Counted from the first letter of the stretch, positions 10,012 to 32,820 are shown. The stretch is DNA of 64,000 nt from Natribaculum luteum (GCF_023008545.1 NZ_CP095397.1:372001-436000); one strand, 5' to 3'. Notes: generated by a model not told the origin, from the sequence alone. Program-made: numbers and translations.

Positions 10012-11022
10012 CTACTTCTCTCGCTTGCGTTTCGATTCGCGAGTGATCCGCTCGAGTCGCCGTCGCTGCTCGCGATGGAGCGTGACGATCATGTCCGAGA
10101 GGACGCCGAACATGAGCAACTGGACGCCGAGCAAGATTCCCGCCGCGGCGACGACCGCGAGCACCTCGTGGCTGATGCCGTACTGGAGGTACCGGTAGAG
10201 CACGTAGAGGGCGATCGTCCCGCCGGAGAGGATGCCGGCGACGCCGAAACTGCCGAAGTAAAACAGCGGGTTGTTCGTCTTCGCCAGCGAGTACAGCGTG
10301 AGGATGATCGTGCCGCCGTCCCACAGCGGGTGGAGGTTCGTCTCCGAGTCTTCCGGGCGCGCGCGATAACTGATCGGGACGACCGTCGTGTCCACGCCGT
10401 GTTTCACGCACTCGACGGCCAGTTCCGTCTCGATCGTGAACCCCTCGGATTCGAGCGAGAGCCGACGGAACGAGTCGGTCGTAAACGCCCGGTAGCCCGA
10501 GAGGATGTCGTCGTACTCGGCCCCGTGGATGAACCGGAACGCACCGTTTATCATCCGATTGCCGAAGCCGTTGAGTGCGCGCATCGCGCCGTCGTCCATG
10601 TCCGCAAAGCGGTTGCCGATCACGTGCTCGTACCCGCGAGCGAGCGGCTCGAGCATCGTCTCGGCGTCCGCGGGGTCGTAGGTCCCGTCGCCGTCGACCA
10701 TCAGGACGTAGGGAACGTCGACGTACTCGAGGGCCTCGCGGACGGCCTGTCCCTTCCCGGAGCCGGATTGTGTGAGTACCCGCGCGCCACGATCGCGGGC
10801 GATCTCGCGCGTGTCGTCGCCGGAGTCGCCGTCGACGACGAGGACGTTGGTGTACCCCTGGTCGCGAAAGTCGTCGATCACCTCGCCGATCGTCGCCGCC
10901 TCGTTCAGCGTCGGGATCAGGACGCAGACCTCGTCGGCCGAGATGTCACGCGCCGCTTCGGCCGCGGCGACCGCACCGTCGCCGCGAAGCGTCGAGTTCG
11001 CGCGAACCACGTCGTCGTCCAT
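10012..11022 (-). CDS. aglJ: Dolichyl-phosphate hexosyltransferase AglJ-type
   Basis: In haloarchaea AglJ adds the first sugar to dolichyl phosphate for S-layer N-glycans. The 336-residue protein is a GT2 (GT-A fold) enzyme with LIPTLNEAATIGEVIDDF, VVDGDSGDDT and the nucleotide/metal motif MVDGDGTYD. Two C-terminal membrane segments follow (FGSFGVAGILSGGTIALYVL and VLAVVAAAGILLGVQLLMFG), then a basic tail. The ATG at 11022 was chosen because the region before it is not conserved in type and contains basic shadow sequence. It opens the glycosylation locus that runs to aglB at 29890, and is divergent from the arylsulfotransferase-like gene. Confidence 0.88.
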   Translation of the reverse strand: MDDDVVRANSTLRGDGAVAAAEAARDISADEVCVLIPTLNEAATIGEVIDDFRDQGYTNVLVVDGDSGDDTREIARDRGARVLTQSGSGKGQAVREALEYVDVPYVLMVDGDGTYDPADAETMLEPLARGYEHVIGNRFADMDDGAMRALNGFGNRMINGAFRFIHGAEYDDILSGYRAFTTDSFRRLSLESEGFTIETELAVECVKHGVDTTVVPISYRARPEDSETNLHPLWDGGTIILTLYSLAKTNNPLFYFGSFGVAGILSGGTIALYVLYRYLQYGISHEVLAVVAAAGILLGVQLLMFGVLSDMIVTLHREQRRRLERITRESKRKREK

Positions 11023-11320
11023 TGTCAGCCACTCGATGTCCAGATTGGAAAAGGCTACTGATCGATTTCCACGCCGTGACGAACGATCAAACCGATCGGG
11101 TCGCCCCTCCGTCTTCGTCCGCCTCGAAGGACCATCGTCGACGTGAACCCCCCCGCTGACGAGCACCTCGTGGACCATTCACTCGATAGCGGACGCAGCC
11201 GGTGACGGAGCTACTGGAGGATCGACGGGGCGAGGGACGAGAGCGAGGGATAAGCGATCGTGACCATCATCGCTGACTGGCGAAAGAAAGATCCCACCCG
11301 TCGGTGACCGTGTAGACACG

Positions 11321-14585: not shown

Positions 14586-14900
14586 GATCGTTGGGTGATG
14601 AATCGTCGGAGAGTCACAAGCACCGGCGATGGAAACGGAGTAGTCTCTGTATCGAGCTCCCTGGACTTGAGGGTTGGCCCGGCACCGTCCACAGGTGCGG
14701 ATGATACTGTCCCGCCAATCCGGGTGAGAGGGTTTCGTCAACGGACCGACCTACCGAGATTCGAAGGTCGATCTTCGGTAGTCGTTTTCCCGTGAACCGA
14801 CGTCGAGACGATCTCTCGATCGAGTTGACGATCAAACTATTCACACGAAACGATGCGTTCATCAGCAAGTATTCAAGCGTTCAGACACCAAGCAAGACGT
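14586..14900. promoter_or_regulatory. Divergent intergenic region before the GlmU-like gene
   Basis: This 315-base spacer holds no gene. A+T-rich boxes at 14836-14845 (AAACTATTCAC type) and 14870-14880 (AGTATTCAA) are candidate TATA elements for the rightward gene. The second is about 27 bases before its ATG. The leftward promoter is not obvious. Confidence 0.4.
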
Positions 14901-16067
14901 ATGGACGACAATAACGTGTCAGCTGTCGTACTCGCAGCTGGCGAAGGGCGCCGACTCGAGCCCCTGACCAATCGGCGTCCGAAGCCGATGGTTCCGGTGG
15001 CGAACCGGCCGATTCTCGAGTACGTCGTGTCGGCGATCGCGGACGCGGGGATCGACCGAATCGTGCTGGTCGTCGGCTACCAGCAAGAGCGGATCAGGAA
15101 TCACTTCGGCGACGGCAACGACTGGGGGATCGACATCGAGTACGCCGTCCAGGAGAAACAGCTTGGAACTGCCCACGCTGTGTTGCAGGCCGAGGCGCTC
15201 GTGACGAATCCGTTCCTCGTGCTGAACGGGGATCGGCTCGTCGACGCCTCCCTCGTCGATCGAGTGCGACGCGAAATCGAGCGGAGCGACGGACCGGTGA
15301 TGGCGGTCACGCGGACGGACCACGCAAGCGACTACGGCGTCGTTTCGATAGACGGCGATCGAGTCACTGCCATCGCCGAGAAGCCACGGGAACCCGTCAC
15401 GTCCGAGATCATCAACGCTGGCGTGTACGGGTTCGGCGACTCGATTTTCGAGGCGATTCGGGCGACGCCAACCGAGCGTGGCGAACTGGCGATTACGACG
15501 ACGCTCGAGCGAATTACGGACGATCACCCCATCCGGGCCGTCCGGTATCGTGGCCTCTGGCTCGACGTCTCGCACCTGTGGGATCTCCTCGACGTCAACG
15601 CGGCGGCGGTCGACGACTTCGACGAGCAGGGATCGACACCGCTCGAGGGGGCCGTCGCCAGTGATACCGTGATCGGAACCGACGTGACCCTCGGTCCGAA
15701 CGCGACCGTCGGTGGCGGGACTGCGATCGGTGACAACGTGACGATCGAATCGAACGCCGTTCTCTCGAACGCGGTCGTCTTCTCGGACGCGGTTATCGAA
15801 GCCGGCGCCGTTGTTCGCGACTCGGTGGTCGGCGAAAACGCCAGGATCGGTGCAAACGCGACGATCACAGGCGATTCCGCGAGGATGATCGTCGAGGGCG
15901 AAGTCCACGACGACGTCGATCTCGGCGGCGTCGTCGGCGACAACGCGACTGTCGGGAGCGGCGTCACCGTCGAACCCGGGACCGTGGTGGGCGACGGCGC
16001 GACCGTCGCCCACGGCGTGAGCGTCAGCGGACGAATCGAACCGGACGCGATCGTCAGGAGGGGATAA
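14901..16067 (+). CDS. GlmU/AglF-like sugar-1-phosphate nucleotidylyltransferase with acyltransferase domain
   Basis: This 388-residue protein makes an NDP-sugar donor. The N-terminal nucleotidyltransferase (about residues 1-230) has AVVLAAGEGRRLEPLT..RPKPMVPVANRP, the G-x-G-x-R and Lys-Pro signature. From about residue 245 the repeated hexapeptides (TLGPNATVGGGTAIGDNVTIESNAVL and following) form a left-handed beta-helix, as in GlmU-type acetyltransferases. The start at 14901 follows a TATA-like box. It is one base from glmS, so the pair probably supplies UDP-GlcNAc or a related sugar. Glucose-1-phosphate uridylyltransferase (AglF) is an alternative activity. Confidence 0.85.
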   Translation: MDDNNVSAVVLAAGEGRRLEPLTNRRPKPMVPVANRPILEYVVSAIADAGIDRIVLVVGYQQERIRNHFGDGNDWGIDIEYAVQEKQLGTAHAVLQAEALVTNPFLVLNGDRLVDASLVDRVRREIERSDGPVMAVTRTDHASDYGVVSIDGDRVTAIAEKPREPVTSEIINAGVYGFGDSIFEAIRATPTERGELAITTTLERITDDHPIRAVRYRGLWLDVSHLWDLLDVNAAAVDDFDEQGSTPLEGAVASDTVIGTDVTLGPNATVGGGTAIGDNVTIESNAVLSNAVVFSDAVIEAGAVVRDSVVGENARIGANATITGDSARMIVEGEVHDDVDLGGVVGDNATVGSGVTVEPGTVVGDGATVAHGVSVSGRIEPDAIVRRG

Positions 16068-16068
16068 C

Positions 16069-17874
16069 ATGTGCGGAATCGTCGGCTACGTCGGCAGCGA
16101 ACCCGCCGGTCCGATCGTCTACGGCGGCCTCGAGAACCTCGATTATCGCGGCTACGACTCCGCCGGGGTCGCACTCGTGGAGGAGCCTCTCACCATCGCA
16201 AAGCGCACGGGTGAAGTGAGCGAACTAGAGGTTCCCGGTGCGCCGGGTGCCACCTGCGGGATCGGACATACTCGCTGGTCGACGCACGGCCCGCCGACCG
16301 ATCCGAACGCCCACCCACACACGGGGCAGACCGACGAGGTTGCGGTGGTCCACAACGGCATTATCGAGAACTACGAATCGATCAAAGAGGAGTTGCAAGA
16401 AGCGGGACACGACTTCTCGAGCGACACGGACACGGAGGTCATCCCTCACCTCCTCGAGCGAGAACTGGAGAACGGTCACGACCTGCTCTCCGGGCTCGAA
16501 ACGGTCGTCGACATGATCGAGGGGAGCTATGCGATCGCTGCGGTGCGGGCGGGACACGATCGGATCGTCGCCACGCGCCACGAGAGCCCGCTGGTCGTCG
16601 GTCACGGTGACGACGCGTCGTTCCTCGCGAGCGACGTCACGGCGTTCCTCGATCGGACGCGCGACGTCACCTATCTCGAGGACGGCGATATCGCACGGCT
16701 CGAGGCGGGTTCCGTGACGGTGTATCGTGACGGTGACGTCATCGACCGCGACGTCGAGACTGTCGAGTGGGACGCCGACGCAGCGGAAAAAGGCGGGTAC
16801 GAGCACTACATGCGAAAAGAGATTCACGAACAGCCCACCGCGCTTCGGCAGACGCTTTCGGGGCGTGTCGACGTCGAACGCGGCGGCGTCGACCTCGACG
16901 TCGCGTTCCCGCAGGGGTACCTCGAATCGCTCGAAGAGATCCAGCTCGTCGCCTGTGGGACGTCCTACTACGCGAGTCAGTATGCGGCACAGTTGCTCGA
17001 GGAGTTCGCCGACGTGCGTGCGACCGTCGACATCGCGAGCGAGTACACCTTCGACGGTGGTCGGGACCCCTGGCGGACGCTCGTCATCGCCGTGACACAG
17101 AGCGGCGAGACGGCAGATACGCTCGGCGCGATCCGTCGAGCCGGTGGAGCGGGGGCCCGAACTCTCGCCGTGACGAACACGCTCGGGAGTTCGGTAACGC
17201 GCGAGACGGACGACGCACTGTTCATCCGCGCTGGCCCCGAAATCGGCGTCGCGGCGACCAAGACGTTCGCATCTCAGGTGACGACGCTCGCGCTGCTCGC
17301 GGCCGACATCGGGCGGCAGCGAGGGACGCTCGCAGCCACCGACGCCCGAGAGGTCCTCGAACACCTCCGGAGTCTGCCGGGGGCGATCCAGCAGGTGCTC
17401 GACGAAGAAGCGCGCGTCGTCGCGGGCGCCGAACAGTTCGTCGACGCCGACGCCTTCTTCTTCATTGGCCGACAGTTCGGCTATCCGGTCGCGCTCGAAG
17501 GGGCACTGAAATTGAAGGAGATCGCCTACGACCACGCCGAGGGGTTCGCGGCGGGCGAGCTAAAGCACGGGCCGCTCGCGCTCATCACCGACGAGACGCC
17601 GGTCCTGTCGGTGCTGACCGAGGGCGCACGGCCGGCGGAGACGCTAAACAACGTCACGGAGGCGCAGGCACGCGAAGCGCCGGCGGTCGGGGTGACAGAC
17701 GGCACCGTCGAGACGGATTCGCTGGACCTCACACTCGAGGTGCCCGAGATCGGCGCTCTGACGCCACTCGTCGCGAACGTCTACTTCCAACTGTTCGCCT
17801 ACCACGTCGCCGATCTTCAGGAGCGATCGATCGACAAGCCGCGGAACTTGGCAAAGAGCGTGACCGTCGAATGA
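16069..17874 (+). CDS. glmS: Glutamine--fructose-6-phosphate aminotransferase
   Basis: GlmS makes glucosamine-6-phosphate from fructose-6-phosphate and glutamine. The 601-residue protein begins MCGIVGYVGS, with Cys2 as the N-terminal nucleophile of the glutaminase domain. RWSTHGPPTDPNAHPH and HNGIIENY follow. Two SIS domains (VACGTSYYASQYAAQLL, VTQSGETADTLGAIR, then GRQFGYPVALEGALKLKEIAYDHAEGF) bind the sugar phosphate. The C terminus is the usual KPRNLAKSVTVE. Length and all motifs are normal. Packing against the GlmU-like gene makes a two-gene amino-sugar operon inside the glycosylation locus. Confidence 0.96.
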   Translation: MCGIVGYVGSEPAGPIVYGGLENLDYRGYDSAGVALVEEPLTIAKRTGEVSELEVPGAPGATCGIGHTRWSTHGPPTDPNAHPHTGQTDEVAVVHNGIIENYESIKEELQEAGHDFSSDTDTEVIPHLLERELENGHDLLSGLETVVDMIEGSYAIAAVRAGHDRIVATRHESPLVVGHGDDASFLASDVTAFLDRTRDVTYLEDGDIARLEAGSVTVYRDGDVIDRDVETVEWDADAAEKGGYEHYMRKEIHEQPTALRQTLSGRVDVERGGVDLDVAFPQGYLESLEEIQLVACGTSYYASQYAAQLLEEFADVRATVDIASEYTFDGGRDPWRTLVIAVTQSGETADTLGAIRRAGGAGARTLAVTNTLGSSVTRETDDALFIRAGPEIGVAATKTFASQVTTLALLAADIGRQRGTLAATDAREVLEHLRSLPGAIQQVLDEEARVVAGAEQFVDADAFFFIGRQFGYPVALEGALKLKEIAYDHAEGFAAGELKHGPLALITDETPVLSVLTEGARPAETLNNVTEAQAREAPAVGVTDGTVETDSLDLTLEVPEIGALTPLVANVYFQLFAYHVADLQERSIDKPRNLAKSVTVE

Positions 17875-18269: not shown

Positions 18270-19496
18270 ATGAGCATACTCGTAACGGGAGCGGACGGTT
18301 ACATCGGCTGGCCGACGGCACTACGCATTGCAACGCAAACGACCGATCGTGTCGTACTCGTCGACAATTTCGCCAGACGAGAGTGGGTCGAGTCCGTCGG
18401 CTCGACCAGCGCCGTTCCCGTAGCCGAGATGGACGATCGACTCGCCGCTGCCGAGGAAATTCACGGCTGTACCAACCTCTCGTTCGTTCGGGAAGATCTG
18501 ACCGACAAGGCAACGGTCGACCGCTTGCTGTCGATCCACGAGCCGACCGCGATCGTCCACACCGCCGCCCAGCCATCGGCACCCTACTCCCAGATCAACG
18601 GCGAGCGGGCAAACTATACCCAGCACAACAACCTTCAGGCGACGCGCAACCTGCTCTGGGGGCTCCACGAGCAGGGTCTCGAGGACACCCACTTCATCGA
18701 GACGACGACGACCGGCGTCTACGGAGCGCCCGAGTTCCCGATCCCCGAAGGCGGGGCGACCATGGAACATCGAGGCGAGAGCGACGACGTCCCGTTCCCC
18801 GCGATGGCCGGGAGCTGGTACCACCTCACCAAAAGCCACGACGCGGCCAACATGCGGCTCGCGCACACGCAGTTCGACGTTCCGATCTCCGACGTCCGGA
18901 CGGCGATTACGTACGGGACTGAAACCGCAGAAACCGCCGCGGATCCGCGCCTGGCAACTCGTTTCGACTTCGATTACTACTTTGGGGTCGTCGTCCACCG
19001 ATTCTGCGCCCAGGCCGTCGCCGGCTACCCGATGACCGTCTACGGGAAGGGTGAACAGCGCAAACCCTTCATCGCGCTCGAGGACGCGGTCGAAGGGCTC
19101 GCGCGACTCGCACTCGCCGATCCCGACTCGCGACCCGACGATCACGTCGTCTACAACCAGGTGACGCGAGCGATCAGCATCGTCGAGATCGCGGAGACGA
19201 TCGCCGACGTGGCCGGCGAGTTCGACCTCGACGTTGCCGTCGAGCACTTCGAGAATCCGCGCGAGGAGGACGAAACCCACAAGATGGAGATCGAGAACGA
19301 TCGGTACGCCGACCTGATCGACGGGCAGTCGACCACGTTCGAAGAGGGAGTCCGTGATATCCTCGGGACGCTGATCGACTATCAGGACACGGTCGAGGCG
19401 CACGAGGATCGGTTCCTCCCGGGCGTGTTGGCAGACGACGAAACGGCCGAGACGGACGACGACGCGGAGTCGCCGATCGCATCAGAGGGTGAGTAG
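18270..19496 (+). CDS. SQD1/Agl3-like UDP-sulfoquinovose synthase
   Basis: SQD1 and archaeal Agl3 make UDP-sulfoquinovose from UDP-glucose and sulfite, for sulfolipid or N-glycans. This 408-residue extended SDR enzyme matches SQD1 in order: GADGYIGWPTAL (NAD site, with W in place of the usual S), QPSAPYS, YTQHNNLQATRNLL, TTTTGVYG (residues 145-152), SWYHLTK with Tyr184 and Lys188, YGKGEQRKPFIALEDAVEGL, and the late PREEDETHKMEIENDRYADL. The QHNN, APYS and W-for-S features separate it from ordinary UDP-sugar epimerases. About 30 acidic residues are added at the C terminus. First gene of a three-SDR operon. Confidence 0.78.
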   Translation: MSILVTGADGYIGWPTALRIATQTTDRVVLVDNFARREWVESVGSTSAVPVAEMDDRLAAAEEIHGCTNLSFVREDLTDKATVDRLLSIHEPTAIVHTAAQPSAPYSQINGERANYTQHNNLQATRNLLWGLHEQGLEDTHFIETTTTGVYGAPEFPIPEGGATMEHRGESDDVPFPAMAGSWYHLTKSHDAANMRLAHTQFDVPISDVRTAITYGTETAETAADPRLATRFDFDYYFGVVVHRFCAQAVAGYPMTVYGKGEQRKPFIALEDAVEGLARLALADPDSRPDDHVVYNQVTRAISIVEIAETIADVAGEFDLDVAVEHFENPREEDETHKMEIENDRYADLIDGQSTTFEEGVRDILGTLIDYQDTVEAHEDRFLPGVLADDETAETDDDAESPIASEGE

Positions 19497-19497
19497 A

Positions 19498-20451
19498 ATG
19501 CGAATCCTGGTCACGGGCGGCTGCGGGTACATCGGAAGCGCGCTCGTCCCGCTGTTGCTCGACGACGAACGGGTCGACGACGTCGTCGTCCTCGATTCAC
19601 TCACGGCGGGGTCACCTGCGAACCTCCGTGGATGTATCGACGAAACACTCCACTTTCGGCGCGGGGACGTGCGCGAATACGGCGACGTCGAAAGCGCGAT
19701 GCGCGGCGTCGACCGCGTCATCCATCTGGCGGCGATCACGGGCGCGGCCTCGACGCACGACCGTCGCGACGAGACGTTCGCAATCAATCGAGACGGGACG
19801 GAGAACGTACTCACCGCTGCCGGGAAACTCGACGTCGATTCGGTCGTGTTCGCATCGTCGTGTAACAACTACGGGCGAGCGGCAAGTACGAATATCGACG
19901 AGGAAACCGAACAGGATCCGCTCAATCCGTACGCGGAATCGAAAGTCGAGTCCGAACGGTTGCTCGCCGAAGCGATCGAGGACTACGGCATCGACGGCAC
20001 CGCGTTGCGGATGAGTACGAACTACGGCTGGGCGCCAGGAGTCCGGTTTAACCTGGTCGTGAACCACTTCGTCTTCCGTGGCCTGACCGATCGTCCGCTG
20101 ACGGTGTACGGCGACGGCAACAACTGGCGGCCGTTCATCCACGTCGAGGACGCCGCGCGAGCGTACGCACACGCAGCCCTCGAGCCCGAGTCGTGGCCAC
20201 AGGTGGTATACAACGTCGGGTCGAACGACGAGAACTACCGGATCGCAGACATCGCCGACATCGTCCGCGACGAACTCGACGACGACCTCGAGATCACCTA
20301 CCTCGAGGACAAACATCCCGGACCGTCGTACCACGTGAACTTCGATCGCCTGGCCGAAACGGGCTTCGAACCCGAGTGGACCGTTCGACAGGGCGTTCGC
20401 GAACTCGCAGATCGCTTGCAACGAAATCAACCGAGGATGATCGACGCATGA
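19498..20451 (+). CDS. NAD-dependent nucleotide-sugar epimerase/dehydratase
   Basis: This 317-residue extended SDR enzyme has an N-terminal Rossmann motif (ILVTGGCGYIGSALV), the active-site segments SSCNNYG and YAESKVESERLL (Tyr/Lys), and a C-terminal NDP-sugar binding part (YGDGNNWRPFIHVEDAARAYAHA). It most resembles UDP-glucose 4-epimerase and dTDP-glucose 4,6-dehydratase relatives; the exact reaction cannot be told. The start is one base after the upstream stop, and its stop overlaps the next start (ATGA), so the three SDR genes form one operon. It likely prepares a sugar donor for the N-glycan. Confidence 0.85.
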   Translation: MRILVTGGCGYIGSALVPLLLDDERVDDVVVLDSLTAGSPANLRGCIDETLHFRRGDVREYGDVESAMRGVDRVIHLAAITGAASTHDRRDETFAINRDGTENVLTAAGKLDVDSVVFASSCNNYGRAASTNIDEETEQDPLNPYAESKVESERLLAEAIEDYGIDGTALRMSTNYGWAPGVRFNLVVNHFVFRGLTDRPLTVYGDGNNWRPFIHVEDAARAYAHAALEPESWPQVVYNVGSNDENYRIADIADIVRDELDDDLEITYLEDKHPGPSYHVNFDRLAETGFEPEWTVRQGVRELADRLQRNQPRMIDA

Positions 20452-21437
20452 ACGGTTCGACGACCGCACGAGACGACCCGACGATCGCGATCACCGGTGC
20501 GGCCGGATTCATCGGAAGCCGCGTCGTACAGCAGCTTCGGGCAACCCATCCGAACTGGAACCTGCTCGCACTCGACAATCAGTACCGCGGCCAGGTCGAG
20601 TCGGTCGGCGACACCGACATCGACCACGTCGACGTCCGCGACCGACGGCGACTCGAGGAGTTCCTCGAGGGGGCAGACGTCGTCCTCCACCTGGCGGCGG
20701 TAAGCGGGGTCGACGACTGCGACGAGAACCCTGACCTGACCTACGACGTCAACGTCACGGGGACGAACAACGTCGCCTGGTTCTGCCGGAAGACCGGGGC
20801 GGCGCTCGTGTTCCCGTTCAGCATGGCCGTCCTCGGCGATCCCGAGACGTTTCCGATCACCGCGGACCAGTCTCGCGATCCGCTCAACTGGTACGGGCGG
20901 ACGAAGCTCCTCGGCGAACGGGCGATCGAGACGTTCGCCGACGGCGCATTCCCCGCCCACCTGTTCCTGAAGTCGAACCTCTACGGCGACCACGTCGTCG
21001 ACGGGACCGTGGTCTCGAAACCGACCGTGATCAACTTCTTCGTCGATCGAGCGACGGCGGGCGAGTCGCTGACGGTGTACGAGCCAGGAACGCAGTCGCG
21101 CAACTTCGTCCACGTCAAAGACGTCGCCCGAGCCTACATCCGGAGCGCGGAGCGGCTCCTCGACCAACTGGCCGACGGCGACACGGGCACTGAAACGTAC
21201 GAGATCGCTGGTAACGAGGACCCATCGGTGATGTCGGTCGCGGAGACGGTCCAAGAGATAGCCCGCGACGAACTCGGCGTCTCGGTCGACGTCGAACTCG
21301 TCGAGAATCCCCGGAGCGGCGAGACGTTAGTCGAGGACTTCACGGTCGATACCTCGAAAGCGAACGAGGTGCTCAGGTGGGAGGCACGTCACACGGTCGA
21401 CGAGTCGGTTCGGGAGCTGGTGCGACGGCGAGCGTAG
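20448..21437 (+). CDS. NAD-dependent nucleotide-sugar epimerase/dehydratase (second)
   Basis: This 329-residue extended SDR enzyme starts MNGSTTARDDPTIAITGAAGFIGSRVV. The NAD motif is followed by HLAAVSGVDDCDENPDLTYDVNVTGTNNV, the active-site region FPFSMAVLGDPE, and NWYGRTKLLGERAI (Tyr/Lys). The usual Ser/Thr before the catalytic Tyr appears as FSMAV, an acceptable variant. A C-terminal substrate domain is present (YEPGTQSRNFVHVKDVARAYI). It is translationally coupled to the preceding SDR gene. A third activity in the same operon suggests a multistep conversion, for example epimerisation of the sulfosugar or of a hexuronate. Confidence 0.83.
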   Translation: MNGSTTARDDPTIAITGAAGFIGSRVVQQLRATHPNWNLLALDNQYRGQVESVGDTDIDHVDVRDRRRLEEFLEGADVVLHLAAVSGVDDCDENPDLTYDVNVTGTNNVAWFCRKTGAALVFPFSMAVLGDPETFPITADQSRDPLNWYGRTKLLGERAIETFADGAFPAHLFLKSNLYGDHVVDGTVVSKPTVINFFVDRATAGESLTVYEPGTQSRNFVHVKDVARAYIRSAERLLDQLADGDTGTETYEIAGNEDPSVMSVAETVQEIARDELGVSVDVELVENPRSGETLVEDFTVDTSKANEVLRWEARHTVDESVRELVRRRA

Positions 21438-21513: not shown

Positions 21514-22371
21514 ATGGGTACGCGAACCGGTTCGACAGAACTGCTTCAACAGCTGGATCTGAAGGAGTACGAGGCGACGGCGCTCGCCCACCTGCTGAGT
21601 GCCGGCCGGACGACCGCCCCGGACATCTCGGAAGCGACTGGTATCCCCAATGCACGAGTGTATGGCGTTCTCGATTCGTTGGCCGACTACGGATTCATCA
21701 AGGTGATCCCTGGCCGGCCAAAGCAGTACCAGCCAAAGTCGCCGGAAGAGATTCTCGAGCGAGCAAAGGAGAACCGACGACAGCAGTACGAGGATTACTG
21801 CAACGACGTAGACAGGTTGCAAGAGGAGTTCCTCGACGAGTTTCGCCCGCTGTACAACCAGGCGGACGAAGACGTGACGCCGACCGCCGAACTGTTTCAC
21901 GTGGTCGACGTCGGCGATCCGAGCGAGACGGAGACCCGACAACTCTACCAGAACGCGTCGGAAGAAGTCTACGTCATCACCAACAGCTTCGCGTACTTCG
22001 ACGACGTCGAATCGGCCGTGAACGCCGCGCTCGATCGAGGTATCGACGTCTCGGTGCTGTTTCTCGATCCCAGAAAGCTTCCGGAGGAGAAGGCGGCGGT
22101 GCAGGTCGACATCGTCGACGAAATCGCATCCGAGTACCCCGCGATCGACTACCGATTCAGCGAAGCGGTGCTGCCCTGGCGCGGAACGTTCATCGATCCG
22201 AGCATGAACTACGACTCTGGTAAGGCGATCTTCCTCGTCGAGGAAACCGACGTTCCCGACCACAAGCGGCAGGCGGCGATCACGGAGAACGGATCGTTCG
22301 TCGCCGGTATGAAGCGGTACTTCGATCTGATCTGGCGCTACGAGAGCCTCGAGCCTCAGCCGTCGGTCTGA
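21514..22371 (+). CDS. TrmB-family transcriptional regulator
   Basis: This 285-residue protein has an N-terminal winged helix (about residues 8-75: LDLKEYEATALAHLLSAGRTTAPDISEATGIPNARVYGVLDSLADYGFIKVIPGRPKQY). A coiled segment (ILERAKENRRQQYEDYCNDVDRLQEEFLDEF) and a C-terminal phospholipase-D-like/TrmB effector domain (about 130-280) follow. TrmB proteins sense sugars and repress or activate metabolic genes. It lies 76 bases after the three-SDR operon and in the same direction. A TrmB-type operator is found at that operon's start, so local control is likely. The ligand may be a sugar intermediate of the glycan pathway. Confidence 0.85.
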   Translation: MGTRTGSTELLQQLDLKEYEATALAHLLSAGRTTAPDISEATGIPNARVYGVLDSLADYGFIKVIPGRPKQYQPKSPEEILERAKENRRQQYEDYCNDVDRLQEEFLDEFRPLYNQADEDVTPTAELFHVVDVGDPSETETRQLYQNASEEVYVITNSFAYFDDVESAVNAALDRGIDVSVLFLDPRKLPEEKAAVQVDIVDEIASEYPAIDYRFSEAVLPWRGTFIDPSMNYDSGKAIFLVEETDVPDHKRQAAITENGSFVAGMKRYFDLIWRYESLEPQPSV

Positions 22372-22560: not shown

Positions 22561-24099
22561 TCACTGGTCGATGAAATGGCCTGCGATACGTTTTACGGGA
22601 CCAAGATTTACGCCGAACCTCTCTTCGAAACTCAGTACGAGCATGACCTCTTCCTCCTCGATGCCACCCAAAGCGAGAATCGCAACGCCATAGACGGTGA
22701 TAAAAACCACGGCTATTCCTAACAGGACCGGCCCCGTCACGGTAAGAACTCGAGTAACAATAACATACATTCCGAGCATGGAGAACACTCCAACAGTAGC
22801 AGGTTTGAACAGCGCAGCTGTCGCCGGATGAATTCCTGTAGCCCGGTAGAGTTGTACAGAATAGAGTGTATTTAGGCCTATGTAAGACACCGCAGTAGCC
22901 ACGGCTGCACCCATAAGCCCATATTCGGGAATAAGAACAACATTGAGGACGATATTCGTTCCACCAGCGAGCAGGTTATCCCACATTATCGTTCTCGTTC
23001 GTCCGATGGCAGTGAGGGTGTTCACGTTTGGTCCGGCCACTGCGTGGGTGAAGAACCCGACTGCGAGCACCACAAGTGGCAATGCCGCCTCGGTATACTC
23101 GGGTCCGAATGTCAGACTGATCGTGGCTGCTGGGAACAGTATCATGATGAGTCCTGCCGGAAGTGTTGCCATGAAGATCCACTTGGTGACGATTTTGTAA
23201 GTTCGATCCATCTCGTTGGTTCTCCTCTCAGAGTGGAGTTCCGACAGAATCGGCATGGCGATAAAGCTGAACGCCGACAGCGTCGCCGTCAACAGTTCTG
23301 CGAGAGGATAGACGACATTGTAACTCCCGACTTCACTAGAGGTTCGAAAATAACTTAGAATGAAGATGTCAAAGTACGAAAGGACCATAATCATCGACGC
23401 TGTGAGCATCAGCGGTGCAGAAAAGGTCAGCAGTTCGCGACGTCGCGTTCGTGAAGACACCGACGATCTAATGTTCGTCCGCGTCAGGACGTAGTAGAGG
23501 CCAGCCAAGCCTGCAACAGCGAACGTTGCCGCGTAGGCACCGACGATCCCCAATGCGCCGAGACTGAAGTACAGCGCGAGGACAACTAGCCCAAATCGAA
23601 CGATCGGCTGGCCGATATTCCTGATAAGTACCTTTGGGAGTGACCGCTGGTGACCCTGGATTACGCCGATAGACAGTTTCATCAGGGCGGCAAATGGGAC
23701 GCCGATAGCCGCAACTCGGAGTACACTCGTCGCCTCTGGTGCACCGAGAACGTGTGTTGCGACGAGATCAGCAAAGACAAACAACACAGCAGCGACGCTA
23801 ACAGAGATTGCCAATACGATCTGCATTCCCGACTCGATGACACCCTTGCGATCCGCCGGATCGTCAAACCGCGGAAGATACCGACCGATGCCTGTGTTCA
23901 TCCCAAAAAGAAGGATTGTAGATGCGAACGATAGTGTCGTGATTCCGATAGTCGCGACGCCATACGTTGGAGGGCCTAACAGTCTGGCCATCAGTACCTT
24001 CGCGAGGAAGGAAATTCCGAGCTCGAGTACGAGGCCAACAAACAATAGAACGCCGCTTTTGAACAATCGGCGAATGATCGAGTTCTGATCTTCGGGCAT
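22561..24099 (-). CDS. Lipid-linked oligosaccharide flippase candidate (MATE/Wzx type)
   Basis: This 512-residue integral membrane protein has about 12-14 hydrophobic segments and the polysaccharide-export signature at the N terminus (SGVLLFVGLVLELGISFLAKVLMARLLGPPTYGV). It would move dolichol-linked glycan from the inner to the outer face of the membrane before AglB transfers it. AglR-type proteins fill this role in Haloferax. A+T content is higher than in the SDR operon, as for the genes to its right, which suggests a separately acquired cassette. Family assignment is good; substrate is inferred from context. Confidence 0.85.
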   Translation of the reverse strand: MPEDQNSIIRRLFKSGVLLFVGLVLELGISFLAKVLMARLLGPPTYGVATIGITTLSFASTILLFGMNTGIGRYLPRFDDPADRKGVIESGMQIVLAISVSVAAVLFVFADLVATHVLGAPEATSVLRVAAIGVPFAALMKLSIGVIQGHQRSLPKVLIRNIGQPIVRFGLVVLALYFSLGALGIVGAYAATFAVAGLAGLYYVLTRTNIRSSVSSRTRRRELLTFSAPLMLTASMIMVLSYFDIFILSYFRTSSEVGSYNVVYPLAELLTATLSAFSFIAMPILSELHSERRTNEMDRTYKIVTKWIFMATLPAGLIMILFPAATISLTFGPEYTEAALPLVVLAVGFFTHAVAGPNVNTLTAIGRTRTIMWDNLLAGGTNIVLNVVLIPEYGLMGAAVATAVSYIGLNTLYSVQLYRATGIHPATAALFKPATVGVFSMLGMYVIVTRVLTVTGPVLLGIAVVFITVYGVAILALGGIEEEEVMLVLSFEERFGVNLGPVKRIAGHFIDQ

Positions 24100-25203: not shown

Positions 25204-26205
25204 GTGCCACGAGTGCTTTTGCTACACACTAACCGAGAATATGCCGAGACGCTCGCCGATGCTGTCACTGAAAGTGACACCGACTTTGAACCTCTTGTCG
25301 TTAGCCGCCAGCCATTGCTTGATCGCCTAAAAACGCTTTTGACTGCGGATATTGATTTAATTCAGGCAGACGAACTAATGGTTAATGGAATGCTTGCAGC
25401 CGGCGCATCGCTTGTACGGCAGATTCCTTTAGTTGTTAGCATTCGCGGGTGGGCAGATTACACGAATGCCCACAATCAATACGGCTCTCTACGAGAGAGA
25501 TCTATCGAACTTCGATCCAAGGCTACCTTGCAACGTACCAAATCTACACTGTTCATTAGCGAAATAACTGAGCAAGCCTTCAAGAAACGATATAATGTTT
25601 GTGATGCAACAATTGTCGGCCGTCCTATCGACATTGAGGCATACGCTGATGGGACTCAAAGGGGACGAAATACGTTCGATGTTCTAACGGTCACAAATCT
25701 TCGATACAAAGAGAAATACAAAGGAGTTGTAATGACGTTACAGGCAATGGAACCGTTGTTTGAGGAGTACCCCTCACTTCGGTTTCGTATTGCAGGTAGC
25801 GGTCCTTATCTTGAAAAGTTAAAAAAATTCCTCCAAACATATAATTATTCAAACCGCATCAGTTTGCTTGGGTTCGTTGACGCAATTGCTGACGAGTATG
25901 CGAGTGCAGACCTATTTGTTTATGTTAGCTTTCTTGACTCGTATGCAACAGTAATTTTAGAAGCACAGGCTGCTGGTCTCCCAGTTATCGGTAGTGATGC
26001 TGTCGGCATCCCTGAGACAGTAGGTAATGGTGGGATGCTCTGTGACCCCACTGTTGAGGGTATACAAGCAGCACTTGAGCACGTAATCTCCGACGACGAT
26101 CTCCGATATGATCTTGAAAGGCGCGCCCAGCAAAAGATCGCAACCCACAATGCAGAATCTGCTGCCGCCCATATTGACGTCTGGGAGCGCGTCCTCACAA
26201 ACTGA
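25204..26205 (+). CDS. Glycosyltransferase family 4
   Basis: This 333-residue GT-B fold protein starts at GTG (MPRVLLLHTNREYAETLADAV). The C-terminal donor domain is typical: VLTVTNLRYKEKYKGVVMTLQAM, RFRIAGSGPYLEKLKKFL, and the E-x7-E nucleotide-binding motif EAQAAGLPVIGSDAVGIPE. Base composition is clearly lower in G+C and codon use is different from the rest of the window, with many third-position A or T. This points to recent transfer. It is the only rightward gene among leftward ones here. It probably adds one sugar of the N-glycan; the sugar is unknown. Confidence 0.85.
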   Translation: MPRVLLLHTNREYAETLADAVTESDTDFEPLVVSRQPLLDRLKTLLTADIDLIQADELMVNGMLAAGASLVRQIPLVVSIRGWADYTNAHNQYGSLRERSIELRSKATLQRTKSTLFISEITEQAFKKRYNVCDATIVGRPIDIEAYADGTQRGRNTFDVLTVTNLRYKEKYKGVVMTLQAMEPLFEEYPSLRFRIAGSGPYLEKLKKFLQTYNYSNRISLLGFVDAIADEYASADLFVYVSFLDSYATVILEAQAAGLPVIGSDAVGIPETVGNGGMLCDPTVEGIQAALEHVISDDDLRYDLERRAQQKIATHNAESAAAHIDVWERVLTN

Positions 26206-27635: not shown

Positions 27636-28622
27636 CTACAGACTCCGAAGGACATTCGAATATTCACCGGCAATCCGTTCCCAACTGTACTCCGCAGCCA
27701 GTTTCTGGAGGCTATCGATTGTAGTTTCAGAGACATCGTTCGCTCGTTCGATGGCGGCAGCAATCGATGCAGACTCAGCCTCGCAGAACTCGACAGTACC
27801 GTCGAACTTCTTTTCAGCTCGGCCAGACAGTTGTACCGTCGGGAGGCGTGCAGCACCGTATTCCAGGACCTTTAGTGTATGTGGGTCATCGACGAGGCTA
27901 ACCCCAACATCGGCAGCGTGGAGGTACCCCGGCACATGTTCGTGTGGAACAGTCCCCAAATAGATAATCCTATCCGAATTTGCAGCAGCGTCAGTGACGG
28001 TCGGTTCGAGTGAACCCGAACCAAGCACAACCAATGACCAGTCATCAAGATAGTATATACTTTCGACTAGTTCTCGGATATGATAGATCGGCTCGAGACC
28101 ACCAACATAGATGACGACGTTCTTTCGAAGATCGAACTTTTCGAGGCGATCACTGGCAATATCGAGTATCCGAGCGTCAGGATCGGCGAACCGGTTATAC
28201 TCGACACCGAGGTCGGACTTAGTGGCTGTCGTTGCGTGACGCTGAACCCGCGTCTTTTCTTCAGAATACACATACAACGTGTGGGCCGATTTCCGGAATG
28301 CGAGGTTTTCGAGATGGCGAACGGACTGCGCTATTGGCCACACGCTAGTCTCCTCCAACTGGCGGATCGGGTCAACGTGGTCTACAACTAGCGGCAATCC
28401 CGTAACCGTAGACACGACTAGTCCGACAATAGCGCCAGCACGTGTCGTCCCGATGATTGCATCATATTCGTCATCGGAAGCGAAAATCTCTCGAATTATC
28501 CACGGTCTTCCGGCTCGAAGATCGACGTTGAACCCGTTCTCTTCAAGGTGGGATGCGATACGCGCTCTCCCAACGCTGATATTCTCAGGTTTGTTCGGTG
28601 TAAGCCAAAGTACCCGTGTCAT
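27636..28622 (-). CDS. Glycosyltransferase family 4 (second)
   Basis: This 328-residue GT-B glycosyltransferase begins MTRVLWLTPNKPENISVGRARIASHLE. The acceptor domain is followed by VVIYVGGLEPIYHIRELVESI, SLVVLGSGSLEPTVT and LHAADVGVSLVDDPHTLKVLEYGAARLPTV, the last covering the donor-binding E-rich motif. Only nine bases separate it from the downstream end of the neighbouring GT2 gene, so the two and the sulfatase gene (45-60 bases away) form a leftward operon. It likely extends the dolichol-linked glycan at the cytoplasmic face. Sugar specificity is unknown. Confidence 0.85.
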   Translation of the reverse strand: MTRVLWLTPNKPENISVGRARIASHLEENGFNVDLRAGRPWIIREIFASDDEYDAIIGTTRAGAIVGLVVSTVTGLPLVVDHVDPIRQLEETSVWPIAQSVRHLENLAFRKSAHTLYVYSEEKTRVQRHATTATKSDLGVEYNRFADPDARILDIASDRLEKFDLRKNVVIYVGGLEPIYHIRELVESIYYLDDWSLVVLGSGSLEPTVTDAAANSDRIIYLGTVPHEHVPGYLHAADVGVSLVDDPHTLKVLEYGAARLPTVQLSGRAEKKFDGTVEFCEAESASIAAAIERANDVSETTIDSLQKLAAEYSWERIAGEYSNVLRSL

Positions 28623-28631
28623 GGTTGACGA

Positions 28632-29552
28632 TCACCGCCACTTGGTCATCCCATAGAGATATCCAAACCCAACAGTCGTCGTAAAGACGAACAACATCAC
28701 GAACTGCACGGCCTTCTCGAGGGAAGGAGCGGTAAAAAGCTGTTTCACGCGCGACGGGACGAACTCTCGAAAGAGTTGACCGAGGAAGTCGTACTCCTCG
28801 CCGGTCGATTCGGGAACTAGCACTTCCATCCCGCGCTTCGAGTACCCCTGCCAGAAGGCACGGTCGAGCAACCACAGCGGTTCGGTCCGGTAGTCGAACA
28901 CCTTGTGGGCGACCTCCGCCTCGGGTTCGTAGTAGACGCCCTGACCGTACCTGCTGCGGAGGCGGGCACACAGTTCTGTCTCGCCGCCCTGGAGATTTTC
29001 GTCGCCCTGGCGGCCGCCGATGTTGGTATCGAACCCGTCCAGCTCGAGGAAGACGTCCTGCCGGAAGGAGATGTTCGAGCCGAACGTGTTGCGGACCTCG
29101 CCCCGACCGTCGGCGAACCCGCGCTGGGTGACGCCGATCAGGAAGTAAAACTCCTCGGGGAGAAACGTCGGTCTCCCGGCCACCCACTCTGGAACCATCT
29201 TCCCGCCGGCGGCCAGCGCGCCCTCTCGCTCGTACGTCTCGACGAGTGTGGCGACCCACTCAGGATCGGCTACGGCGTCGTCATCGATGAACGCGACTAC
29301 GTCGCCCGTCGCCGCTTTTGCTCCATTGTTTCGACTCTCGAGCAGTCCGACGTTGTCCTCGTTGCAGTGGATCAAAACCTCCTCGCGGTCGCCGTACTCC
29401 TCGTGAAAGCGCTCGCAGACCGCCTCGTTTCCGTCGGCGACGAGCACGAGTTCGACGTCGTCGTACGTCTGCTCGAGGACGCTTTCGGCGGCGTCCTGCA
29501 GGTCATCGTACCGGTCCAGCGTATGCTCACAGACGACGACCGAGACGCGCAT
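28632..29552 (-). CDS. AglG/AglI-like glycosyltransferase family 2
   Basis: This GT2 enzyme of 306 residues starts MRVSVVVCEHTLDRYDDLQDAAESVL, chosen because haloarchaeal AglG/AglI proteins begin in this way; an ATG 11 codons earlier is possible. The GT-A motifs are VLVADGNEAV and VAFIDDDAVADPEWV (the Asp cluster for metal and nucleotide), and GGETELCARLR. A single C-terminal membrane segment (AVQFVMLFVFTTTVGFGYLYG) anchors it. In Haloferax, AglG and AglI add hexuronic acids as second and third sugars. The same position is likely here. It is first in the leftward operon and divergent from aglB. Confidence 0.85.
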   Translation of the reverse strand: MRVSVVVCEHTLDRYDDLQDAAESVLEQTYDDVELVLVADGNEAVCERFHEEYGDREEVLIHCNEDNVGLLESRNNGAKAATGDVVAFIDDDAVADPEWVATLVETYEREGALAAGGKMVPEWVAGRPTFLPEEFYFLIGVTQRGFADGRGEVRNTFGSNISFRQDVFLELDGFDTNIGGRQGDENLQGGETELCARLRSRYGQGVYYEPEAEVAHKVFDYRTEPLWLLDRAFWQGYSKRGMEVLVPESTGEEYDFLGQLFREFVPSRVKQLFTAPSLEKAVQFVMLFVFTTTVGFGYLYGMTKWR

Positions 29553-29889
29553 GCGCAGTGGTCGGAAACCGAGAGAGTTAGTCATTTCGAGATTGGATCG
29601 ACGATCATTGGCCGGAAGAGGCGGACACCACGCCAAAGTACGGCACGCAAGCGCTCGTCGCCGGGTGACGTTCGACCGCCTGCTCCGGTGTCGTGTCGAC
29701 GCCGGCCGATGCGGTGTAGTTTATGCCTGAAGACGTATTCTCTCCCAGCCATGGCGATTCGTGCCCACCACGGACGATTCGGGGGAGGTGGATCAGACCT
29801 CCTGCTCGAGCGGGCAATCTCGAGCGAAATATGAAAGCGCCGCGAATAGATGACAAGGCTTATTCTTCGGTTGGGATTGATGGAACCTA
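29553..29889. promoter_or_regulatory. Divergent intergenic region between the AglG-like gene and aglB
   Basis: The 337-base spacer contains no convincing gene. Near aglB an A+T-rich stretch (about 29855-29868, GGCTTATTCTTCGG) may be its TATA region, 25-30 bases before the ATG. The leftward promoter is not clear. Confidence 0.4.
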
Positions 29890-32820
29890 ATGAGTACCGA
29901 CACTGAACACGTCGAGGAGGACACCGAAACGCCCTTCCTCGAGACGTGGAGAGAGTGGTATCACGTCCCGGTTATCGGGGTCGTGGTACTGTTCATGTTC
30001 CTCGCGCGAATCAGGTCGTACGATCGGTTCGTTACCGAGGACGGCACTCCCGCCCTGGCCGCAGTCGACTCGTGGTATCACTGGCGAACGATACAGTGGA
30101 CGGCCAAAAACTATCCCGGAACGATGCCCTACGACGTGTGGACCGGCTTTCCCACCGGTCACTACGTCGGTCAGTTCGGCACGCTGTTCGACCAGCTAAT
30201 CGTGACGGCCGCGATGATCGTCGGACTCGGCAGTCCCTCCACCGAGACGCTCTACACGGTCGCACTGCTCTCCGTGCCCGCGATGGCAGCGCTGGTCGCG
30301 ATTCCCGTGTTCTACATGGGCCGGCGACTCGGCGGCACGGTCGGCGGACTCGTCTCGATCGTCGTGCTCGCACTCGCGCCCGGCACGTTCTTCTACCGGT
30401 CGATGGTCGGCCAGCTCGATCACCACACCGCCGAAGTGCTGTTCATGGCAATTGCCATGCTGGCGATGATGGTCGCACTCCGCGTCGCAGAACGGGAGAA
30501 GCCGATTTACGAACTGGTCGTCGATGGAGACTGGGACGCCCTCCGCGAGCCAGCGATCTACAGCGTCCTCGCCGGACTCGCGCTCTCGCTGTACATCTGG
30601 GTGTGGCCGTCGGCCATCCTGCTGATCGGCATCTTCGCCGTCTTCTTCGCCGTGCAACTCTGTCTCGACTACGTCCGTGGCGTCTCCCCCGATCACGTCG
30701 CGTTCGTCGGTGCCGTCAGCATGGGGACGACGACCGTCGTCACCACGCTACTCATCGAAGACGGCGGAGCAGGCCTCAACGTCTCGAGTTTCGGCTACCT
30801 CCAGCCGCTCGCAGCCCTGCTGGTCGCGGCCGGCGTCGTCTTCATGGCCTGGCTCGCCCGTCAGTGGAACGACCGCGGTCTCGAGCGGCGCTACTATCCC
30901 GTGGCGATCGGCGGGATCATCGCCGCCGTGTTGGTCGTGATGATGCTCGCGCTTCCCAACCTCTACGATACGTTCGTCGGGAACCTCACCGGGCGGTTGC
31001 TCCCGCTCGACCCGAGTACGGGTGCGCTCACCGTTCGCGAAGCCCATCCACCGGGGAACTTCACCGCACACGTCTTCGACGAGTTCGGAGCCGCGTTCTA
31101 CACGATGCTCGCCGGACTCGGATTCCTCATCGCACGGCCGTTCCTCGGCCGCGAGTATCGCGCGGAGTACACGCTGATCGTCGTCTGGTCGCTGTTTCTG
31201 ATCAGCATGTCGATGACGCAGACTCGCTTCGCATACTATCTCGTGCTCGCGGTCGCGGTCGTCAACGCGGTCTTCGTCGCGGACGTCGTCCGACTGTTCG
31301 ACCTCTCGGGGACGGTCCAGTCGCTCCAGGACGTCGAGACCTACCAGGTCATCGTCTTCGTTCTCGTGATCGTGCTCCTGTTTGCACCGCTTTTGCCGCC
31401 GATGGCTGCCGCCGGCAGCACCGCGTGGGATCGCGGCGAGCAGAGCCAGCCCAGCAGCGACGCGATGATCTGGGAGGACTCGAACCACTGGCTCGCGGAG
31501 AACACGCCCGAACCCGGCAACTACGGCGGTGCGGGTAACGAGTCCGAACTCGAGTACTACGGCACCTACGACTACCCCGAAGACGGTGACTACGACTACC
31601 CCGAGGGCGCCTACGGCGTGATGTCGTGGTGGGACTACGGCCACCTCATCACGGTCCAAGGCGAGCGGATCCCCCACGCGAACCCGTTCCAGCAGAACGC
31701 GCGGTCGGCCTCGGCGTATCTCACCGCGGAGTCCGAAGAGCGCGCCGAGTTGATCCTCGAGGCGATCGCGGCCGGCGAACCGGTGGCCGACCGATCAACC
31801 GAGGAGTTGCGCGACGCCGTCGAGAACGCAGACGAGAGTCACGAACAGCAACGGTACGTGATGATCGACTACGCGACGGCAGGCGGGAAGTTCAGCGCGA
31901 TCACGGCGTGGTCCGGGCCGGGCTACGGCCACTACGTGACGCCCGCGGATTACCAGTCCGGTGAGTCGATTCCGGTCGAGGAGATCGGCGAGCGGTTCGG
32001 GAATCTGCCGTACGACAATACGACCACGTCCCGGCTGTACTTCGACGACGCCGCCGGAATGGAACACTACCGGCTCGTCCACGAGAACGACGCATTCACG
32101 CCGACGTACATCAGTTACGCGATCACCCGGAACGGGCAGGTCGCCACGAACGAGAACGGTCAGCCTGCGGTCGCGATCAACCGTCGAGTCACCCAGCAGG
32201 TCCAGCTCGAACTCCAGCAGCTCCAGAGCAATCCCAACCTCGACGTGCAGGTCTTCGACCAGCGCCAGGCCGCCGCGGTGAAGACGTTCGAACGGGTCGA
32301 GGGCGCGACGCTCACCGGCTCGCTCGACGACCAGAGCGTGATCGACGACGAGAACGCGGCGGTCTACGCGCAGGTCGAACTCGAGACGGGCACCAACCGG
32401 ACGTTCGTCTACACCCAGCAGGCCGAACTGGCCGACGACGGCAGTTTCGAGGTGACGGTGCCGTACGCGACCGACGACGAACTCGGGCCGGACGACGGCT
32501 ACACGGACAGCAGCGTCGAGGCGGTCGGCGACTACGCGGTCTTCGTCGGCACGCCCGACAACGGCACCATCCAGCAACACTACGCCGGCGAGACCGCCGT
32601 TCCCGAAACGGCGGTCGTCGACGGCGATACCGTCGACGTGACCCTCGAGCAGACCGACGAGGTCGTCGACGATCCCGACGCCAACGAGACGACAGACGAC
32701 GGCAACGAGACCAGCGAAGGTGACGGTGACTCCGCGGCGAACGAGACGGAGACGAACGAGACCGACGCCGGGAACGTCTCGAGTTCGCTCGAGCCCGTCG
32801 CGGCTCGAACGGCACGCTGA
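29890..32820 (+). CDS. aglB: Dolichyl-phosphooligosaccharide--protein oligosaccharyltransferase
   Basis: AglB moves the finished glycan from its dolichol carrier to Asn in N-x-S/T sequons outside the cell. The 976-residue protein has a multi-spanning N-terminal half and an extracellular C-terminal half. The first loop carries AAVDSWYHWR with the catalytic Asp, a later loop has LTVREAHPPGNF, and the signature WWDYG is at residues 580-584. An unusual tail of about 50 residues rich in Asp, Glu and Thr holds five sequons (Asn 932, 939, 951, 956, 962). It ends the locus that begins with aglJ. Confidence 0.97.
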   Translation: MSTDTEHVEEDTETPFLETWREWYHVPVIGVVVLFMFLARIRSYDRFVTEDGTPALAAVDSWYHWRTIQWTAKNYPGTMPYDVWTGFPTGHYVGQFGTLFDQLIVTAAMIVGLGSPSTETLYTVALLSVPAMAALVAIPVFYMGRRLGGTVGGLVSIVVLALAPGTFFYRSMVGQLDHHTAEVLFMAIAMLAMMVALRVAEREKPIYELVVDGDWDALREPAIYSVLAGLALSLYIWVWPSAILLIGIFAVFFAVQLCLDYVRGVSPDHVAFVGAVSMGTTTVVTTLLIEDGGAGLNVSSFGYLQPLAALLVAAGVVFMAWLARQWNDRGLERRYYPVAIGGIIAAVLVVMMLALPNLYDTFVGNLTGRLLPLDPSTGALTVREAHPPGNFTAHVFDEFGAAFYTMLAGLGFLIARPFLGREYRAEYTLIVVWSLFLISMSMTQTRFAYYLVLAVAVVNAVFVADVVRLFDLSGTVQSLQDVETYQVIVFVLVIVLLFAPLLPPMAAAGSTAWDRGEQSQPSSDAMIWEDSNHWLAENTPEPGNYGGAGNESELEYYGTYDYPEDGDYDYPEGAYGVMSWWDYGHLITVQGERIPHANPFQQNARSASAYLTAESEERAELILEAIAAGEPVADRSTEELRDAVENADESHEQQRYVMIDYATAGGKFSAITAWSGPGYGHYVTPADYQSGESIPVEEIGERFGNLPYDNTTTSRLYFDDAAGMEHYRLVHENDAFTPTYISYAITRNGQVATNENGQPAVAINRRVTQQVQLELQQLQSNPNLDVQVFDQRQAAAVKTFERVEGATLTGSLDDQSVIDDENAAVYAQVELETGTNRTFVYTQQAELADDGSFEVTVPYATDDELGPDDGYTDSSVEAVGDYAVFVGTPDNGTIQQHYAGETAVPETAVVDGDTVDVTLEQTDEVVDDPDANETTDDGNETSEGDGDSAANETETNETDAGNVSSSLEPVAARTAR

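Follow-up and report, generated by a model that had tools for sequence, protein, structure and literature searches.

The closest described relatives of the enzyme considered here are the UDP-sulfoquinovose synthases, namely SQD1 of Arabidopsis, Agl3 of Sulfolobus and the bacterial SqdB proteins. In haloarchaea, an operon of sqdB and two galE homologues was published for Haloquadratum (Hqr.) walsbyi and proposed, on the basis of annotation, to serve sulfolipid synthesis (Bolhuis 2006, PMC1544339). A divergent haloarchaeal cluster of the family was described in 2015; in that tree the haloarchaeal proteins form the distant cluster IV, with only 36 identical residues shared, and they were labelled as UDP-sulfoquinovose synthases (PMC4388408). 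Sulfonated sugars in haloarchaeal S-layer glycans have also been published. We analysed a stretch of 64,000 nucleotides from Natribaculum luteum (GCF_023008545.1, NZ_CP095397.1:372001-436000), referred to below as the window and numbered from its first letter, and found at 18270-21437 the same trio of genes as in Hqr. walsbyi, its first protein belonging to the same clade as cluster IV. We see about an even chance that the product of the trio is an activated amino sugar, probably sulfonated and of the UDP-6-sulfo-quinovosamine type, which would serve as a donor for surface glycans. This product is favoured because Haloarcula (Har.) hispanica, which has 6-sulfo-quinovosamine (6-sulfo-QuiN) in the N-glycan of its S-layer, also has the trio, the first gene of which is the sole SQD1-family member of that genome and lies close to its sole glmS.

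In the literature that we searched, no source noted the loss of the essential Arg and Met from the haloarchaeal clade, described its association with TrmB and GlmS/GlmU, or named it as the candidate for the synthesis of 6-sulfo-QuiN; these three points, namely the diverged active site, the gene neighbourhood and the proposed connection to this sugar, are added here. Haloarchaeal genomes and one published phylogeny call the clade UDP-sulfoquinovose synthase by similarity alone, and because of the residue and context data presented below this label is unsafe.

The operon and the family of its first protein

The three genes are the following:

18270..19496, + strand: first gene, short-chain dehydrogenase/reductase (SDR) of the SQD1 family, haloarchaeal/methanogen type, 408 amino acids; assigned by family profile, PDB, alignment and tree
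19498..20451, + strand: SDR2, extended SDR, RmlB/GalE-like, with the active-site motifs FASSCNNYG and NPYAESK
20448..21437, + strand: SDR3, extended SDR, GalE-like, with the motifs FPFSMAVLGD and NWYGRTK

All three products are extended SDR enzymes, and their genes are tightly packed on one strand. The likeliest start of SDR2 is the ATG at 19498, 2 bases past the stop of the first gene, with an upstream GTG at 19489 as a possible alternative. SDR3 starts at the ATG at 20448 within the stop of SDR2 (ATGA, a 4-base overlap), and this start is preferred to the GTG at 20193, which had been listed and is unlikely. It is clear that the trio is a genuine translationally coupled operon. Two coupled nucleotide-sugar SDR genes had been placed after the first gene by the original prediction, which was made from the sequence by itself, and the spacing of the open reading frames and the SDR motifs confirm them.

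Against the RmlB and GalE models, SDR2 and SDR3 gave weak scores (135 and 115 bits, both far below cut-off), and both lie below every curated cut-off. The catalytic Tyr and Lys are kept in SDR2 (SSCNNYG, Y..AESK) and in SDR3 (SMAVLG, Y.RTK). Because the two proteins have this pair and no dehydratase acid, C4 epimerisation or redox appears to be their likeliest role.

The first protein scored 347.7 bits against the UDP-sulfoquinovose synthase model NF041015 and 47 bits against GalE. It misses the curated cut-off of NF041015 (575 bits), although this cut-off is narrow, as only one of the two matching control genomes (Sulfolobus, Synechococcus) passes it. Its best PDB matches were Arabidopsis SQD1 structures only (1qrr/1i24, E about 7e-69, the top hit 6e-69), and the 33% identity to SQD1 settles the predicted SDR fold. 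In a maximum-likelihood tree, an SQD1 superclade with a support of 100/100 included the protein and excluded E. coli GalE, RmlB, SDR2 and SDR3. One side of this superclade is of the SQD1 type and contains proteins of Arabidopsis, Halobacteriota genome G452, alphaproteobacteria and actinobacteria (94/89); its sister is a haloarchaeal and methanogen-side clade (98/94), which holds the first protein. Near-invariant positions common to both sides number 49, including the His, Tyr and Lys and the GxxGxxGW loop. GalE and RmlB have the extended SDR fold in common with the trio, and SDR2 and SDR3 are of the same broad kind, whereas the first protein is split off by the 100/100 branch. Judged by this tree, it is a member of the SQD1/Agl3 superclade and not an ordinary epimerase. 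The original prediction had staked its SQD1-family assignment on the absence of a grouping with ordinary UDP-glucose or UDP-glucuronate epimerases; no such grouping occurred, and the assignment is upheld.

Active-site residues and two other readings

Four stretches had been taken as SQD1/Agl3 landmarks, and all of them are present in the first protein (GYIGWP, QPSAPYS, YTQHNN and NPREEDE), but QPSAPYS is diverged, the SQD1/Agl3 form being QRSAPYS. The Agl3 motifs were taken from the mutagenesis primers in PMC4388408. In that study, alanine mutants showed that His95, Arg101, Met145, Tyr182 and Lys186 of Agl3 are each essential, R101A and M145A being inactive, while E147A and Y148A retained 12-15% of the activity (E147A, 12%; PMC4388408). 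In Agl3 numbering, the first protein keeps the equivalents of His95, Thr144, Tyr148, Tyr182 and Lys186, and has Glu99 replaced by Ala, Arg101 by Pro, Met145 by Thr and Glu147 by Val. In its own numbering, the residues aligned with Arg101 and Met145 are Pro102 and Thr147. Proline at the position of Arg101 was found in 55 of 55 haloarchaeal/methanogen-side sequences, whereas 9 of 9 SQD1-type proteins have Arg. Among the haloarchaeal/methanogen-side relatives examined, Ala replaces Glu99 in all and Thr replaces Met145 in nearly all, Met being found only in L048. The protein has the superclade and the SDR catalytic residues in common with SQD1, Agl3 and SqdB, but unlike them it lies in a separate supported clade, carries the changes at Arg101, Glu99 and Met145, and has two SDRs and GlmS/GlmU as conserved operon partners. 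As far as the alignment can tell, it is clearly a cousin within the family, but two defining features of the UDP-sulfoquinovose synthases, Arg101 and Met145, are missing from it.

The change of Glu147 to Val is not taken to disprove sulfoquinovose synthesis, because Val also stands at this position in a number of SqdB proteins from bacteria (Sinorhizobium meliloti pSymB, Loktanella, Rhodobacteraceae and Rhodococcus). In S. meliloti, sqdB is required for sulfolipid.

These residues bear on whether the first gene encodes an ordinary UDP-sulfoquinovose synthase, which would use UDP-glucose and sulfite and whose product would enter the N-glycan. Such an enzyme would agree with the placement in the SQD1 family, with the retained His95, Thr144, Tyr182 and Lys186, with the Val147 that is shared with the S. 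meliloti pSymB protein, and with the published label of cluster IV (PMC4388408). We nevertheless find it quite improbable: Arg101, Glu99 and Met145 are replaced throughout or nearly throughout the relatives, R101A and M145A inactivate Agl3, and the NF041015 score falls short of its cut-off. In addition, the GlmS/GlmU partners would be left unexplained, and of the sugars known from carriers of the trio, the one that matches best is an amino form. The N-glycan with sulfoquinovose or a derivative of it that had been predicted for this locus therefore stands in part: a sulfonated sugar is plausible, but the three replaced residues and the GlmS/GlmU partners speak against plain sulfoquinovose.

The acid/base motif of RmlB is STDEVYG. 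Where dTDP-glucose 4,6-dehydratase has this motif, the first protein reads TTTTGVYG, without the Asp-Glu pair. A loop re-shaped in this way (QPSAPYS, TTTTGVYG) would be compatible with another sugar or another route. A further reading is that the sulfite chemistry was lost and that the product of the trio is a sugar nucleotide without a sulfonate, e.g. a 4-epimerised or 6-modified N-acetylhexosamine, the first enzyme being an epimerase or oxidoreductase. The loss of Arg101 and Met145 and the GalE-like TTTTGVYG stretch without an acid would be explained in this way. However, the protein remains in the SQD1 superclade with its 49 shared near-invariant positions, and some enzyme in Har. hispanica must make its sulfonated QuiN, yet a second SQD1-family gene is absent there, so that we consider a non-sulfonated product rather unlikely, if still a serious candidate.

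Two further variants of the family were also noticed. A long-branch SQD1-type protein (L123/L039, genome G302) has ISSAPYS and GTMGEMG, so that Arg101 is replaced by Ser; its gene adjoins TrmB, an SDR, glmU and glmS, and it bridges the two sides of the family as an intermediate. The other variant is a pair of divergent SqdB-like proteins from bacteria (L204 and L206, on Agrobacterium and Rhizobium rhizogenes plasmids), which lies in a plasmid glycosyltransferase cluster and has Ser144, Ile145, Val147 and Ala99, with Arg101 kept.

Synteny and a proposed link to 6-sulfo-quinovosamine

Of the 293 genomes that were sampled from the order, 121 carry the first gene, almost always as a single copy, and roughly a dozen genomes of other Halobacteriota have it too; the operon is both common and old. 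For synteny we compared 58 haloarchaeal 20-kb neighbourhoods and 10 methanogen-side loci (other Halobacteriota). Orthologs of SDR2 and SDR3 were each present in 55 of the 58 haloarchaeal loci, TrmB in 32, glmS in 23 and aglJ in 6, with about 0.7 (glmS) and about 0.3 (aglJ) expected by chance. Where a carrier has a single glmS with a listed position, this glmS lies within about 11 kb of the trio in 12 of 15 cases. TrmB was present in 9 of the 10 methanogen-side loci, and the gene order in one of them (L130) is TrmB-SQDB-SDR2-SDR3-GlmU-GlmU-GlmS. TrmB, GlmU and GlmS also adjoin the gene in Hqr. walsbyi J07HQW1, whose ortholog is 75% identical to the first protein. The recurrence of GlmS/GlmU beside the trio suggests an amino-sugar nucleotide rather than UDP-glucose as the substrate.

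A sugar of this type is known from a carrier of the trio. It is reported in PMC9943897 that the S-layer proteins of Har. hispanica carry an N-linked 6-sulfo-QuiN-(1,6)-[Glc-(1,2)-]Gal trisaccharide (Lu 2015, cited there) and that its membranes contain DolP-QuiNS, DolP being dolichol phosphate. The reported m/z 898 matches the trisaccharide with free-amine QuiNS (calculated 898.30) and not the sulfoquinovose form (899.29). In genome G131, which we take to be that of Har. hispanica and whose contig C2 matches the plasmid pHH400 at 100% over 9 kb from base 1, the proteins of the trio are 79, 71 and 67% identical to those of the window, and the first gene (C3:467623-468795), the only one of the SQD1 family, lies 11 kb from the only glmS. 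A C6-sulfonated hexosamine is thus found on the S-layer of a trio carrier.

Directly downstream of the trio in Har. hispanica (L192:5319-7652) there is a gene for a 777-amino-acid STT3/AglB-like protein with an extra N-terminal region, which scored 126.6 bits against TIGR04154 (cut-off 450) and has the Pfam domains STT3 and AglB_L1. This protein may act as an additional oligosaccharyltransferase-like enzyme, and a similar one is encoded near the trio in other loci.

For Haloferax (Hfx.) volcanii, a (methyl-)sulfoquinovose-hexose glycan was reported (PMC8241124, PMC4245038). The Hfx. volcanii control genome gave no SQD1-family match even at 1e-8, and that the species is without such a gene is also stated in PMC4245038. 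The original prediction regarded S-layer N-glycans with sulfoquinovose or a derivative as not well described in haloarchaea, which was partly wrong, as the glycans of both these species are published.

In the route that we propose, GlmS and the GlmU-type enzyme would supply UDP-glucosamine or its N-acetyl form. The SQD1-family enzyme would bind this UDP-hexose(amine) together with NAD and oxidise C4. If its re-shaped site has conserved the chemistry of SQD1 and Agl3, which act on UDP-glucose, water would then be eliminated to give a 5,6-ene, sulfite would be added at C6 and the hydride returned. SDR2 and SDR3 may complete or interconvert the product by C4 redox or epimerisation, and the UDP-6-sulfo-quinovosamine-type product would pass to dolichol phosphate and into the N-glycan, presumably through the AglB of the window; expression would be linked by TrmB to the availability of sugar. 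More generally, and more tentatively, the haloarchaeal/methanogen clade could represent a second type of enzyme for making sugar C6-sulfonates, one that converts UDP-GlcNAc or UDP-GlcN to UDP-6-sulfo-quinovosamine without the arginine of SQD1/Agl3 and whose gene belongs to a conserved TrmB-SQDB-SDR2-SDR3-GlmU-GlmS unit, widespread in Halobacteria and methanogen relatives; the chance of this seems to us somewhat less than even. Should the trio indeed make a donor of 6-sulfo-quinovosamine, its genes would be those so far lacking for the synthesis of this sugar, the only sulfonated amino sugar known from a haloarchaeal glycan. It would also follow that archaea commonly carry sulfonated sugars, with a carbon-sulfur bond and not a sulfate ester, in their surface coats, which would have a bearing on surface charge in brine, on virus recognition and on the turnover of organosulfur.

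Several observations weigh against a UDP-6-sulfo-quinovosamine-type product. With Arg101 and Met145 replaced, formation of the 5,6-ene by the first enzyme is a prediction only, and the dehydratase Glu is absent from both SDR2 and SDR3. The glmS association may partly be explained by both genes residing in glycan loci. No sulfur-assimilation gene was recurrent across the trio loci compared, which agrees with a non-sulfonated product, and no PAPS (3'-phosphoadenosine-5'-phosphosulfate) reductase match (PF01507) was found in genomes G000, G131 and G628; as a marker of sulfite supply this enzyme is uninformative, since it went undetected even in Har. hispanica, a known maker of a sulfonated sugar. 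Genome G201, which we take to be Har. marismortui, has an intact trio. Its S-layer glycan is described in PMC3827465 as an Hfx.-like pentasaccharide in which no sulfonate is reported, a further point in favour of a non-sulfonated product. The trio product of Har. marismortui may be destined for another glycan, or the chemistry may be different.

Relatives of the first gene were not found in viral contigs, and plasmid records gave matches only from Natrinema, Haladaptatus and bacterial SqdB. In genome G164 an intact first gene is accompanied by another copy (C55:56064-57253) that is broken into two reading frames, with pieces that are 85% and 83% identical, and is apparently a decaying duplicate.

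The surrounding N-glycosylation locus

In the window, a GlmU-type gene and glmS lie upstream of the trio, and TrmB, a flippase and glycosyltransferases downstream:

10012..11178, - strand: AglJ, first glycosyltransferase of N-glycosylation (TIGR04182, 457 bits, cut-off 325); the true start is probably internal to this call
14853..16067, + strand: archaeal GlmU-type sugar-1-phosphate nucleotidylyltransferase/acetyltransferase (TIGR03992, 297.3 bits, just above the cut-off of 292.1)
16069..17874, + strand: GlmS, glucosamine-6-phosphate synthase (TIGR01135, 730 bits, cut-off 418)
21514..22371, + strand: TrmB-family sugar-sensing regulator, a recurrent neighbour of the trio (Pfam TrmB, 7e-20)
22561..24099, - strand: polysaccharide/oligosaccharide flippase-like protein (weak MATE/Wzx-like matches)
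25204..26205, + strand: family-4-type glycosyltransferase (Pfam Glycos_transf_1, 6e-27)
27636..28622, - strand: GT4-like glycosyltransferase (Pfam Glyco_trans_1_4, 7e-10)
28632..29636, - strand: AglG, glucuronosyltransferase of N-glycosylation (NF041394, 523 bits, cut-off 440)
29890..32820, + strand: AglB oligosaccharyltransferase (TIGR04154, 850 bits, cut-off 450)

AglJ, AglG and AglB all exceed their curated cut-offs, and the N-glycosylation locus that had been predicted around the trio is thereby borne out. The AglB is the only one detected in the genome of the window organism, which has 4 copies of glmS, one of them at this locus.

This setting bears on the proposal, made for Hqr. walsbyi in 2006 from annotation (PMC1544339), that the operon feeds a sulfoquinovosyl sulfolipid. 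The window copy, in contrast, sits in an AglB N-glycosylation locus with AglJ, AglG, a flippase and glycosyltransferases as neighbours, aglJ lies less than 10 kb from the first gene in 6 of 58 other loci (0.3 expected), and a lipid-linked partner gene is not among the recurrent neighbours in the loci compared, which makes a role in sulfolipid synthesis very improbable.

Additional genes were seen within the locus. An arylsulfotransferase (ASST)-like membrane protein is encoded between aglJ and the glmU gene (11321-12562), together with a 722-amino-acid protein (12573-14741) without a Pfam or NCBIfam match, which looks to have a twin-arginine signal at its N-terminus and a glycosidase-like domain after it. 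Among the glycosyltransferases there are two sulfatase-fold proteins, one recognised by eye and without a Pfam match (24188-25108), the other matching PF00884 (26238-27590), and relatives recur in other surface-glycan loci.

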